Source: Candidatus Nitrososphaera evergladensis SR1 (GTDB lineage: Archaea; Thermoproteota; Nitrososphaeria; Nitrososphaerales; Nitrososphaeraceae). Taken from it: DNA of 64,000 nucleotides. The DNA is taken from the NCBI RefSeq assembly GCF_000730285.1, contig NZ_CP007174.1, positions 1,364,001 through 1,428,000 on the forward strand, written 5' to 3'. Of the stretch, positions 14,424 through 18,583 are shown piece after piece. The translations under genes were made by a program, and so were the position numbers. Every line of letters starts with the position of its first letter. Position 1 is the first letter of the stretch. A model generated the notes under the pieces. It was not told the DNA's origin, did not search any database, and worked only from the letters and a program-made list of their open reading frames with translations.

Positions 14424-15512
14424 TTAGCGTTCCCGCTTGCCCTCGACGAATTCGAGGAAATTGGCCTTTGCTACAGAGTACGGCATCTGGACAGGTGGGT
14501 GCTTGAAGCAGTAGGCCGAGATGCTGTCAAGCGGGCCGGATATCCCCCGGTCTATTGCTATCTTGGCGCACCTTGCCGCATCTATCATGACGCCGGCCGA
14601 GTTGTAGGCGTCTACCACCTTCAGCTTCAGGTCAAGTTCCACCGGGATCCCGCCAAAGTACTGGCCCTTTATCGAGATGTAGCATATCTTGTCGTTTTCC
14701 AGGAACCCCACAAAGTCAGACGGGCCGATTCGCATGGGGACCTCGTACGGGGCCATCGCTGCCACTGCTGACGTCTTGCTTATCCTCTTGTCTTCGAGGC
14801 GCTCTTCGTCAAGCATGTTGTAAAAGTCCATGTCGCCTCCGATGTTCAATTGATAAGTTTCATTTACTTTGACACCCCTGTCAACAAACAGCTTGACAAG
14901 CGTCTTGTGGACCACTGTTGCGCCAAGCTGGCTCATGACGTCGTCGCCGGCGCACGCAAGGCCTCGCCCTGCAAAGGCGTCCTGCCACTTGGGCGTAGAC
15001 GCTATAAACACCGGTATTGCGTTTACAAATGCGCACCCTGCGTCAAGGCACGCTTCTGCATAGTATTGCGTGCCGCGCCTGCTTCCGACAGGCAGATAGT
15101 TGAGCAGCATCTCTGCGCCCGTGTCCTTTAACACCTGCACCACGTTTGCCGCCGGGCCGTCTGCTACTTTGATCTTTTGCGCAAGGTGCCTGCCGATGCC
15201 GTCGTGGACCTCGCCCTTTTGCACCTTGACGTCCATCTTGTCCATCTCTTTTATGATGCGGATGGTGTTGTTCGGCTTGGCAAATATCGCCTCGGAAAGG
15301 TCCTTTCCTACCTTGCTTGCGTTGACGTCAAAGGCCGCGACAAACTCGATGTCTGACGGCTCCAGCCCTCCAAGGTTATAAGCTGTCAGGCCTATCCAGT
15401 CGCTCTCTTGTTTCTTGGCGTCTGGGTTTTCGCGGTAATAGCGGGTGCCTTGGACTAGAGCAGAAGCGCAATTGCCGATCCCGGCAACGGCGACCTTGAC
15501 CTTTCTACGCAT
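14424..15512 (-). CDS. ino1: myo-Inositol-1-phosphate synthase
   Basis: A 362-residue enzyme converting glucose-6-phosphate to inositol-1-phosphate with NAD. The NAD-binding start is VAVAGIGNCASALVQG. Other family blocks are LNYLPVGSRRGTQYYAE, NAIPVFIAS, and LNIGGDMDFYNML with the KTSAV segment after it. In archaea inositol phosphate is used for archaetidylinositol lipids and some solutes; in actinobacteria it also feeds mycothiol. It is the last gene of a minus-strand cluster (radical SAM, CysRS-like, GNAT, ino1), starting 38 nt after the GNAT stop, so co-transcription is likely. Confidence 0.92.
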   Translation of the reverse strand: MRRKVKVAVAGIGNCASALVQGTRYYRENPDAKKQESDWIGLTAYNLGGLEPSDIEFVAAFDVNASKVGKDLSEAIFAKPNNTIRIIKEMDKMDVKVQKGEVHDGIGRHLAQKIKVADGPAANVVQVLKDTGAEMLLNYLPVGSRRGTQYYAEACLDAGCAFVNAIPVFIASTPKWQDAFAGRGLACAGDDVMSQLGATVVHKTLVKLFVDRGVKVNETYQLNIGGDMDFYNMLDEERLEDKRISKTSAVAAMAPYEVPMRIGPSDFVGFLENDKICYISIKGQYFGGIPVELDLKLKVVDAYNSAGVMIDAARCAKIAIDRGISGPLDSISAYCFKHPPVQMPYSVAKANFLEFVEGKRER

Positions 15513-15550: not shown

Positions 15551-16264
15551 TCAAGTTATTCTCGGGACAGCGCAAATCGTCTTTGTGTAGGCTGTTTCAA
15601 ACCCTGAGCTTTTGTACAAGCCAAGCAGGTTTTCGCTTCCAAGCGTCTGCAAGAACAAGAGCGTGCCTTGCTTTTCAGCAAGTGCCCTGGCAAAATTCAG
15701 AATCGACTTGGCGACGCCCTTGCTCCTCTGCGCTGGAACGGTGCCAAGGCAGTATAGGCCAGTCATGCTGTTGTTTTTTGTTGTAAAGAGCGCCCCACAC
15801 CCTGCTGGCATGTTATTTTCATTATTGTATGCCCGCAAGAGCTCTAGTTTCTTTGCATTGGATGTTATAATGCGCGCAACTTCGTCTTTCCATTCTGGAA
15901 CTGAAAACGACCTGCAAAAGACGTCTATCCATATCGCAACTTCTGATGGCTTGCATGCTGCTGTTATCTTTATTCTCCTGCTATCGCGGGGCTCCCCTGC
16001 CTTCTTTTTTGCCGCTCTTAACACGTACATAGTGTCTACCATACGCAGCCTTGGTGGTGGCTGCGACCTGAAATAAAGGTGGCAGTCGATGCCTGCGTCC
16101 CAGAACACCTGTGCCACCTGCTCGTACGGGACATTACAATTTTCGACTGTTGCCCTGTTGAAAAAATAGTCGCCTTCAAGCTTTGGGTTGACAAGTGCAG
16201 TGGCGCACTTGATCTCTATTTTCTTTGACCACAGCGAACAGAACGCCCATTCGTTTTCCTCCAT
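15551..16264 (-). CDS. Tandem GNAT-type acetyltransferase
   Basis: A 237-residue protein from ATG 16264 (MEENEWAFCSLW). The C-terminal half is a clear GNAT domain: TTKNNSMTGLYCLGTVPAQ followed by RSKGVAKSILNFARALAEK, equivalent to the Q/RxxGxG/A acetyl-CoA loop, then GLYKSSGFE near the end. The N-terminal half (PYEQVAQVFWDAGIDCHLYF) looks like a degenerate second GNAT fold, giving a tandem arrangement as in MshD. It starts 10 nt after the stop of the CysRS-like gene and precedes ino1. The acetyl acceptor is unknown. An in-frame start at 16339 would overlap the upstream gene heavily and is not preferred. Confidence 0.75.
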   Translation of the reverse strand: MEENEWAFCSLWSKKIEIKCATALVNPKLEGDYFFNRATVENCNVPYEQVAQVFWDAGIDCHLYFRSQPPPRLRMVDTMYVLRAAKKKAGEPRDSRRIKITAACKPSEVAIWIDVFCRSFSVPEWKDEVARIITSNAKKLELLRAYNNENNMPAGCGALFTTKNNSMTGLYCLGTVPAQRSKGVAKSILNFARALAEKQGTLLFLQTLGSENLLGLYKSSGFETAYTKTICAVPRIT

Positions 16265-16274
16265 TAACCTGTAA

Positions 16275-17390
16275 TCAGTATCTGAGGCCAAGGATCTCTG
16301 CCATCTCCCTGGTGCCTGCGCCTGCACGCGCGGCTTCAAGCATCACCCTCATCGCGCCCTGCGTGTCAAAATCGTCATCCATCTTTTGCATGAATTTCTT
16401 CATGTGCGCCGGCTTGCATTTCTTGTCTGCTGCACTTGATATAATGTCATCAAGCTCTGCATATTTGGCTAGCCTGTTTTCTGCAAAGTCAAGCCGCTCT
16501 CTATAATGTGTAGAATAGAGGTAAAGCCGCACTGCATTTGCACTGTGGTCTTGCAGCAGCCTTTTGATGGCAACGGCGTTGCCAAGCGACTTGCTCATCT
16601 TTTTTCCCTTGACGTACACAAGGCCGACGTGCGTCCATAACTTTACCGGCTCTTTTTCGGACGTTATCGCGCTCATTTGCGCAAGGTGCGATTCGTGGTG
16701 CGGGTACACCAGCTCGTCAGCGCCACCGTGCATGTCGTATGCGCCGCCAAAGCTGGCCACCGCGACCGACGTGTCTTGCATGTGCCACCACGGTATGCCA
16801 CTTCCAAGCACCCTGTCGGAAAAGCTGATCCCAAAATCATCGTTTGTACTCCACAGCAGGATGTCAAGCGGCGACTTTTTGCCCGGCGCAATGTCAAGCC
16901 GGCAGTCTGCAAGCTCTTTGTCCGTCATCTTTGACAGCCTGCCAAAGCCTGCGCTCTTGGCATCAAGGTAGACGTTTCCGCTTGCGATGTACGCCTTGCC
17001 CTCGTCAAGCAATCGCCTTGCAAGCGCCTGCGCGGTGTGCACGTGGTCTGACACCCGCGCAAAAGCAAAGCCGTCGATGCCAAGCGCCGCGGCGTCGTAC
17101 AAGAGCTCGCTAATGTAATATGTGGCAAGCTCTTTTGGCGCCATGCCTTCTGCCTTGGCCCTTGCAAAAATCTTGGGATCGATATCCGTGATGTTTACGA
17201 TGACTCTGGTTTCTGCACCTAAAAAGCGCAGATAGCGCGTGACAGCGTCGTAAAACAAGAGCATCCTTGCGTGGCCCACGTGCGAATAGTCGTACACGGT
17301 CGGCCCGCAGAGAAATATTCTTGCTGCGGCGGCAGCGCTTCCTGGAACAAAGTCCTTCTTTTTTGCCGCCAGCGTGTCATAGACTTTCAA
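16275..17390 (-). CDS. Cysteinyl-tRNA synthetase-like protein, short C-terminus, altered zinc ligands
   Basis: 371 residues from TTG 17390. CysRS hallmarks are clear: CGPTVYDYSHVGHAR (28-42, HIGH-type), HGGADELVYPHHES (221-234) and KMSKS (264-268). Against E. coli CysRS (zinc ligands C28, C209, H234, E238) the aligned positions are C28, D206, H231 and H235: two ligands differ, though the set could still bind zinc. Only ~103 residues follow KMSKS, against ~190 in E. coli, so most of the anticodon-binding region is missing. MshC, a CysRS homologue that joins cysteine to glucosaminyl-inositol, is also short there. The frame is open to 17585, but upstream residues overlap the radical SAM gene. 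It may be the cell's CysRS or a cysteine ligase for a small molecule; no second cysS is in the window. Confidence 0.75.
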   Translation of the reverse strand: MKVYDTLAAKKKDFVPGSAAAAARIFLCGPTVYDYSHVGHARMLLFYDAVTRYLRFLGAETRVIVNITDIDPKIFARAKAEGMAPKELATYYISELLYDAAALGIDGFAFARVSDHVHTAQALARRLLDEGKAYIASGNVYLDAKSAGFGRLSKMTDKELADCRLDIAPGKKSPLDILLWSTNDDFGISFSDRVLGSGIPWWHMQDTSVAVASFGGAYDMHGGADELVYPHHESHLAQMSAITSEKEPVKLWTHVGLVYVKGKKMSKSLGNAVAIKRLLQDHSANAVRLYLYSTHYRERLDFAENRLAKYAELDDIISSAADKKCKPAHMKKFMQKMDDDFDTQGAMRVMLEAARAGAGTREMAEILGLRY

Positions 17391-17419: not shown

Positions 17420-18583
17420 TTAGACGGCCTCTGCAAGCTCTGGGCGCTCCTGGCTTATTATCTTGCCAAGGCCGCGCATATAGTTTCTTGCAAACGTCGA
17501 CACGGGTTGCGAGGAATACCAGATGCAGCCGAGCACCTCGCAGTCGTGGCACGTCCTTGCAATGTCCCACTGCGGCGCGCTCCATATCTCGTCCACCGAG
17601 TGCTCAAGGAGACTGTACGTGTTTTCTGGGCTGTTGAACTTCCAGCATGGGACCATCACCGTTCCGTCGCCGTTTACAAAGATGCTCTTCCATACGCCGC
17701 ATTCGTCAAACAGCCCGCGGCCGTGCTCAAGTATCTGCTGGAAATACTCCTGCGGGATCATGACTGGCAAACCTCCTGCTTTTTGCTGCTTGCCCATGTA
17801 GTCGAGTATGCTTTCGCACACCTTGTTCATTGTCTGTCTGTCCGGCAAAAGCGAATAGTCTACGTCTGACCTGTCCTCGACAAACGTGAACGAGACTGCG
17901 CTTGCGCCAAGCTCCTTTGCCCTGTCAAAATACGTCTGGTCAATGAACTCTTCTGTGTTGTATTTCGTGATGACGCTGTTGAGGTAGTGCGGGACCTTGT
18001 GCTCCGTCAAAAGGCGCAGGTTGTCCATCACCCTGCGGTACATGTGCGGGTTGACGCCGCGCACCTTGCAGTACGGTTCCTCATAAGTAGAATCAATGCT
18101 GCACGTGACAAACTGGATGTGCTTTTTCAGCTCGTCAAGGTCGATTGTGTGCAAAAGCGAGCAGTTGGAGATGAGCGTAATGGGCATTTTCAGTCCGTGC
18201 AGGTATTTCACAAGCTCCATAAAGTCCGGCCTGCTCGTGGGCTCGCCTCCCTCCACTATGGCCCATACGCAGTATTTTGACACCTTGTCAAAGACCGCCT
18301 TCCATTGCTCGGTAGTCAGGTCCCTGCGCTTTGCAGTCGCTATTTGGCCTTCCTTGTCTGCGTCTCCAAAGGGGCACATGGGGCAGTAAAAGTTGCAGTA
18401 ATGGGTCATGCTGAATACTGCGATCAGAGGGCGCCTCCTGCCGACTGCCCTGTTTGCGGACCACTTGCCAAGCAGCTTTAGCGTCCTTATGGTGTCTACT
18501 CCTCCCATTGTGATATTTTTTGTAAAATGCCCGGAGTATTTCTGCCTTGTTATGCCGTACGCAAAGGCTAACAGAGAGGGCAT
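17420..18583 (-). CDS. Radical SAM/SPASM-type enzyme
   Basis: A 387-residue radical SAM protein. The [4Fe-4S] motif is CNFYCPMC (C63, C67, C70), followed by VEGGEPTSRPDF, the glycine-rich SAM contact. The C-terminal part has CGVW, VPCWKF and CHDCEVLGC, which could hold an auxiliary Fe-S cluster of the SPASM type. Layout recalls HpnH-like and peptide-modifying enzymes, but the substrate is not evident. It is the first gene of the cluster ending in ino1; the CysRS-like TTG comes 29 nt after its stop. An internal ATG at 18508 (MGGVDTIRTLKLL) would leave a more normal divergent promoter gap to the LysE gene, so the first 25 residues are uncertain. Confidence 0.85.
   Translation of the reverse strand: MPSLLAFAYGITRQKYSGHFTKNITMGGVDTIRTLKLLGKWSANRAVGRRRPLIAVFSMTHYCNFYCPMCPFGDADKEGQIATAKRRDLTTEQWKAVFDKVSKYCVWAIVEGGEPTSRPDFMELVKYLHGLKMPITLISNCSLLHTIDLDELKKHIQFVTCSIDSTYEEPYCKVRGVNPHMYRRVMDNLRLLTEHKVPHYLNSVITKYNTEEFIDQTYFDRAKELGASAVSFTFVEDRSDVDYSLLPDRQTMNKVCESILDYMGKQQKAGGLPVMIPQEYFQQILEHGRGLFDECGVWKSIFVNGDGTVMVPCWKFNSPENTYSLLEHSVDEIWSAPQWDIARTCHDCEVLGCIWYSSQPVSTFARNYMRGLGKIISQERPELAEAV

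Follow-up and report, generated by a model that had tools for sequence, protein, structure and literature searches.

The question raised by this locus is what a second, shortened cysteinyl-tRNA synthetase (CysRS) does in a genome that already encodes an ordinary one. The window, that is, the whole stretch of 64,000 nucleotides from Candidatus Nitrososphaera evergladensis SR1 that was analysed, carries on its minus strand (16275..17390) a gene for a 371-residue CysRS paralog, here termed CysRS-D, which consists of the catalytic and stem-contact domains and has no anticodon-binding domain. Its probable start is a TTG at 17390, and the frame is open further upstream to an ATG at 17585, overlapping the previous gene. 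The host genome, a single 2.95 Mb contig, also encodes an ordinary CysRS, a 481-residue frame with Cys, Cys, His and Glu as ligands (CCHE); therefore, translation is covered.

The short paralog and its family

In alignment with E. coli CysRS, the ligand positions C28, C209, H234 and E238 correspond in CysRS-D to C28, D206, H231 and H235, and the spacing from the second ligand onward (25 and 4 residues) is the same in both proteins, which bears out the residues and distances given in the preliminary description of this DNA. On the minus strand, the respective codons are TGC at 17307..17309, GAC at 16773..16775, CAC at 16698..16700 and CAC at 16686..16688. The HIGH motif, present as HVGH, lies at 17271..17282, the intact KMSKS motif at 16587..16601, and T31, T68 and W202 of the pocket are retained. 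CysRS-D thus shares the fold, HIGH, KMSKS, C28 and H234 with canonical archaeal and bacterial enzymes and differs from them in the changes of C209 to Asp and E238 to His and in a C terminus shorter by about 90 residues. Only 103 residues follow KMSKS, compared with 189–222 in archaeal CCHE enzymes, and the match to the CysRS model TIGR00435 (261.5 bits, below the cut-off of 340) covers profile positions 1–372 of 466, so that the absence of a full anticodon domain, also noticed earlier, is confirmed. The score against the MshC model TIGR03447 was likewise below its cut-off (198.9 against 485.1 bits). The AlphaFold2 model of the protein (pLDDT 93.9) gave as its top Foldseek match the CysRS–tRNA complex 1u0b (TMq 0.92), and MshC (3c8z) was matched with TMq 0.90; the closest solved relatives are CysRSs, followed more distantly by MshC.

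Short CysRS paralogs are widespread in the class Nitrososphaeria, of which 300 genomes served as a source of loci, in addition to named genomes of Nitrososphaera and Nitrosotalea. About 103–150 residues follow KMSKS in the short clade. The C28, Asp and H234 positions are retained in all short members, and C28, G29, T31, T68, W202, D206 and H231 are invariant in an alignment of 28 of them (A1). Since D206 is invariant in these 28 diverse members and dozens of genomes have an unbroken frame, chance or a sequencing error is excluded. Position 238 is loose in the short clade: among 51 sequences labelled short, one of which (L169) is a full-length type clipped by a contig end, it is occupied by Glu in 20, His in 15, Ile in seven, Gln in four, Leu in three, and Asp and Tyr in one each. 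Every full-length enzyme sampled, with either Asp or the CCHE set, has Glu there. At residue 235, the change from Glu to His came late, as drift within a lineage, and MshC has lost this position too. Of the two altered ligand positions described earlier, both are present in this protein; only the Asp is a family trait, and the His is limited to part of the clade.

Several irregular sequences were also observed. Genus g2 (L197–L200, L202) has a very divergent short CysRS-D with KMSNS or KMSSS, and in two of its genomes (G100 and G182) the frame contains a TAA, which possibly reflects decay or else lies upstream of the true start. A 99% complete Nitrososphaera-type genome (G137:C31:308966-310159; L118/L185) yielded a single CysRS, and this one has an in-frame TAG, which is a sequencing error or something odd. 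In canonical CCHE CysRSs (L194, L195, L196; L101, L133), KMSKS is replaced by EMHKS in family f4 and by EMSKS in f17.

Divergent members such as those of g2, with their altered KMSKS and the in-frame TAA in two genomes, are what could be expected if the short proteins were decaying or regulatory pseudo-synthetases without ligase activity. This is extremely improbable, however, as almost every member retains HIGH, KMSKS and the pocket residues, and the reading frame has stayed open across deep divergence.

Coupling to a GNAT partner and other neighbours

Ten nucleotides past the CysRS-D stop, on the same strand, begins a gene for a 237-residue acetyltransferase with a tandem-GNAT fold (15551..16264, ATG start). 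Of 64 loci, 55, spread over at least 12 family-level groups, have a GNAT gene directly downstream of the CysRS gene; the remaining nine are mostly full-length CysRSs, or short genes with the GNAT elsewhere in the genome. The same order occurs in G449, which belongs to a different class, and in the g2 genomes, whose CysRS divergence escaped the first search. In two genera of Nitrososphaeraceae (g6 and g10), the genes have been separated and both are kept. The GNAT profile matched 87 of the 300 class genomes, and a short D-type CysRS, whole or fragmentary, was present in each of the 82 of these that were inspected (all but G197, G209, G222, G223 and G242). Two independent profile searches of 74 class genomes returned the same 13 with a second CysRS match and the GNAT, and 61 with neither. 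Within the window's own genus, seven genomes have both genes and four have neither. Among the genomes sampled, none of the Nitrosopumilus-like ones had the pair.

The predicted structure of the partner (pLDDT 94.5) has the tandem-GNAT fold in common with mycothiol synthase (MshD). MshD structures 2c27 (rank 8) and 1ozp are among its top 11 solved Foldseek matches, alongside unrelated tandem GNATs, whereas HMM similarity is weak, the MshD model matching six of 22 GNAT members with a best E of 3e-4. The resemblance to MshD is generic to tandem GNATs.

The strongest rival to a tRNA-independent function is that the two proteins depend on tRNA: the short enzyme would charge tRNA-Cys, or an acceptor stem, and the GNAT-fold partner would transfer the amino acid from Cys-tRNA to a small molecule or protein. 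The short enzyme has retained the stem-contact region, the best structural match is a tRNA complex, and the short enzymes are neutral to basic (median pI 8.3, compared with 5.3 for MshC). They may thus still bind RNA, since they are not acidic like MshC. Moreover, GNAT-fold enzymes dependent on aminoacyl-tRNA exist, one of them, Sba18 (9wqy), being a distant match to the partner, and the transfer of an amino acid by a GNAT has a precedent in SbzC (PMC6331615). The partner, however, retains the acetyl-CoA loop R-x-x-G-V-A as in acetyltransferases, the anticodon domain is gone, and Cys-tRNA is already supplied by the canonical CysRS of the same genome. On balance, such a tRNA-dependent pair seems unlikely.

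The intact catalytic motifs would also suit an accessory CysRS serving translation under stress or metal limitation. CysRS* of Desulfobacterales, likewise a CysRS paralog without an anticodon domain, charges the special tRNA SelC* and is a precedent for such a role (PMC9437257). By its description, CysRS* is coupled to SelB*/SelC* (PMC9437257), whereas CysRS-D is coupled to the GNAT, and neither a SelC*-type tRNA nor SelB* was found among the annotations of the neighbours examined. The obligate partner, gained or lost jointly with the short enzyme, makes an accessory role quite improbable.

Other genes accompany the pair in some lineages. A glutaredoxin-like association occurs in the deeper ones: a gene for a weakly glutaredoxin-like CPHC protein of 114 residues was present in 10 of 25 module-bearing genomes and in none of 24 that lack the module (p=0.0006, relatedness ignored), and in seven genomes (G004, G020, G026, G029, G055, G217, G449) it lies in the module neighbourhood. 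Its carriers are deeper lineages, and it was not found in Nitrososphaera itself. An HExxH domain weakly matching SprT-like proteins is fused to the GNAT in families f18 and f20 (L080, L087, L089, L091, L092) and forms a separate next gene in f4 members (L094:2270-2782, L096:4603-5118). At 38 loci (e.g. L010, L066, L082, L092, L207), a small conserved gene of about 80–120 codons lies divergently upstream of CysRS-D; its product gave no confident Pfam match, and the gene was sought in this window and not found. In Nitrosotalea-type loci (e.g. L010 and L027, minus strand), the second gene after the CysRS-like one is presumably deoxyhypusine-synthase-like; it separates the GNAT from the inositol-phosphate synthase.

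Directly upstream of CysRS-D, on the minus strand (17420..18583), a radical SAM protein weakly similar to PTO1314/PqqE is encoded. This adjacency was seen only in Nitrososphaera-type genomes, at eight loci, all assigned to Nitrososphaeraceae, and it is doubtful that the protein is part of the module. Downstream on the same strand lies the gene for myo-inositol-1-phosphate synthase (Ino1; 14424..15512). A link to inositol through this neighbour was considered and is not diagnostic of the mycothiol pathway, because the Ino1 gene is universal (48 of 48 genomes tested) and its adjacency to the module is limited to Nitrososphaeraceae and the Nitrosotalea-type clade.

Origin of the aspartate

A search of the phylum with the family profile recovered full-length CysRSs of other Thermoproteota, of about 470–510 residues, with this Asp and an invariable Glu at position 238 (CDHE). 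They share with CysRS-D the second ligand and the ancestry, and differ from it in having about 200 residues past KMSKS, the Glu at 238 and no GNAT neighbour. In the tree, which was built without the two varying ligand columns, all D-type enzymes form one clade (100/99), and all short ones form one clade inside it (100/100). A grouping of the short D-type enzymes with MshC gave an AU p of 0.31, with MshC represented by a single sequence on a long branch; a place of MshC inside the short clade is thus neither backed nor rejected. The nesting sets the order of events: Cys would first have been replaced by Asp in a full-length CysRS; the gene would then have been duplicated, and the copy would have shed the anticodon domain and acquired the GNAT partner; and position 238 would have drifted last.

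In several genomes, including G337 (100% complete), G593, G323, G485, G416 and G436, the full-length D-type enzyme is the sole CysRS, defined as the only CysRS match at E <= 1e-70. None of these genomes has a SepRS above the cut-off; the control was positive in two methanogens expected to have SepRS. Because the Asp occurs in the sole CysRS of genomes without SepRS, it is probably compatible with ordinary Cys-tRNA synthesis, and the full-length D-type enzymes probably charge tRNA-Cys. Family f9 (L137, L126, L149, L135; G195, G258, G267, G268, G270, G277) has a full-length CDHE CysRS, no CCHE CysRS and a SepRS; taken alone it is misleading about the Asp, since its genomes do carry SepRS.

These full-length enzymes bear on two points raised earlier. 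The preliminary description proposed that zinc binding by Cys/Asp/His/His would alter cysteine recognition, and for the change of Cys to Asp by itself this is not supported, as the same residue is found in sole CysRSs of SepRS-less genomes. It also named, as evidence that would speak against it, a placement among ordinary CysRSs with the same changes and proven tRNA charging: the full-length relatives come near to this, as they share the Asp and probably charge tRNA-Cys. A switch of substrate, by which the Cys/Asp/His/His zinc site would activate another amino acid or a modified cysteine, draws on the replacement of a soft thiolate by a hard carboxylate ligand in every member, together with the drift at position 238. 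It is nevertheless unlikely, given the full-length sole CysRSs with the same Asp and the unaltered amino-acid pocket of the short enzymes.

Comparison with the mycothiol pathway and a proposed function

MshC, the L-cysteine:GlcN-Ins ligase, is among the closest known systems. It is derived from CysRS, has lost the anticodon domain, keeps the equivalents of C28 and H234, and belongs to a pathway that includes a tandem GNAT, MshD. The architecture of CysRS-D, an intact catalytic core without an anticodon domain, matches it. The amino group is held in MshC by G44, T46 and T83 (PMC9736012), and the equivalents of these residues are retained in the short CysRS-D family. The fourth ligand position is lost in MshC, where it is Ser, and is loose in this clade; the MshC ligands are C43, C231 and H256 (CCHS), that is, MshC has Cys at position 209, where CysRS-D has Asp. 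The earlier suggestion of an amine acceptor in place of tRNA is thus plausible, considering the MshC-like length, the obligate GNAT partner and the canonical CysRS elsewhere in the genome.

The classical mycothiol pathway itself was dropped, because no match to an MshB-type PIG-L deacetylase (PF02585) was found in the host genome, the control search being positive in seven genomes. For the same reason, neither of the known routes, to mycothiol or to bacillithiol, would lead to the acceptor, which is probably not glucosaminyl-inositol synthesised in the bacterial way, and classical mycothiol is an unlikely product. Glycosyltransferases of the GT4 type, such as MshA, form too general a group to be diagnostic of the pathway.

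We therefore favour, at close to an even chance, a reading of CysRS-D as a CysRS-derived, tRNA-independent cysteine ligase with no role in translation, which together with an MshD-like acetyltransferase would yield an N-acyl-cysteinyl thiol. CysRS-D would activate cysteine with ATP on its intact class-I active site, with zinc predicted to be held by Cys28, Asp206, His231 and, in this protein, possibly His235. The activated cysteine would be passed to a small amine in place of tRNA, as in MshC. The GNAT encoded downstream would then acylate the product, probably by N-acetylation of the cysteine in the manner of MshD, and the resulting N-acyl-cysteinyl conjugate could be used as a low-molecular-weight thiol. 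Against this reading count the missing MshB-type deacetylase, the absence of the glutaredoxin-like gene from Nitrososphaera, the generic nature of the resemblance between the GNAT and MshD, the higher pI of the short enzymes compared with MshC, and the other thiol routes reported for Nitrososphaerales. On a wider scale, it is conceivable, at appreciably less than an even chance, that a D-type CysRS was converted independently in Nitrososphaeria into a cysteine:amine ligase, and that this ligase and its obligate GNAT, joined in deeper lineages by a glutaredoxin-like protein dedicated to the system, make a new archaeal low-molecular-weight thiol parallel to mycothiol.

The general kind of system is already known; new here is a putative CysRS-derived ligase with a GNAT in archaea, with Asp as a predicted zinc ligand. 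Of CysRS paralogs, a 2022 review lists CysRS* and MshC (PMC9437257), and a review of archaeal thiols from 2020 found archaea to lack mycothiol genes, apart from a single MshD match (PMC7278568). A study of ancestral genomes of ammonia-oxidising archaea names only ergothioneine and gamma-glutamylcysteine routes, with egtB/egtD and gshA as the other thiol routes reported for Nitrososphaerales, and its main text makes no mention of the CysRS-D/GNAT pair (PMC7554672). No earlier description of the pair was found in open-access papers, and one may exist elsewhere.

Summarizing, the CysRS-D/GNAT pair found in ammonia oxidisers of soil and in related archaea appears to be a so far undescribed pathway to a small molecule that contains cysteine, much as mycothiol does in bacteria. 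If this is true, CysRS would have been recruited to small-molecule ligation for a second time, possibly independently. The thiol chemistry of ammonia-oxidising archaea, an abundant group, is known only in part; in the search for a new metabolite, the conserved synthetase-derived ligase and its constant acetyltransferase partner offer a two-gene target. Furthermore, the full-length CysRSs with an Asp ligand allow a direct test of the rule that cysteine selection requires two Cys.
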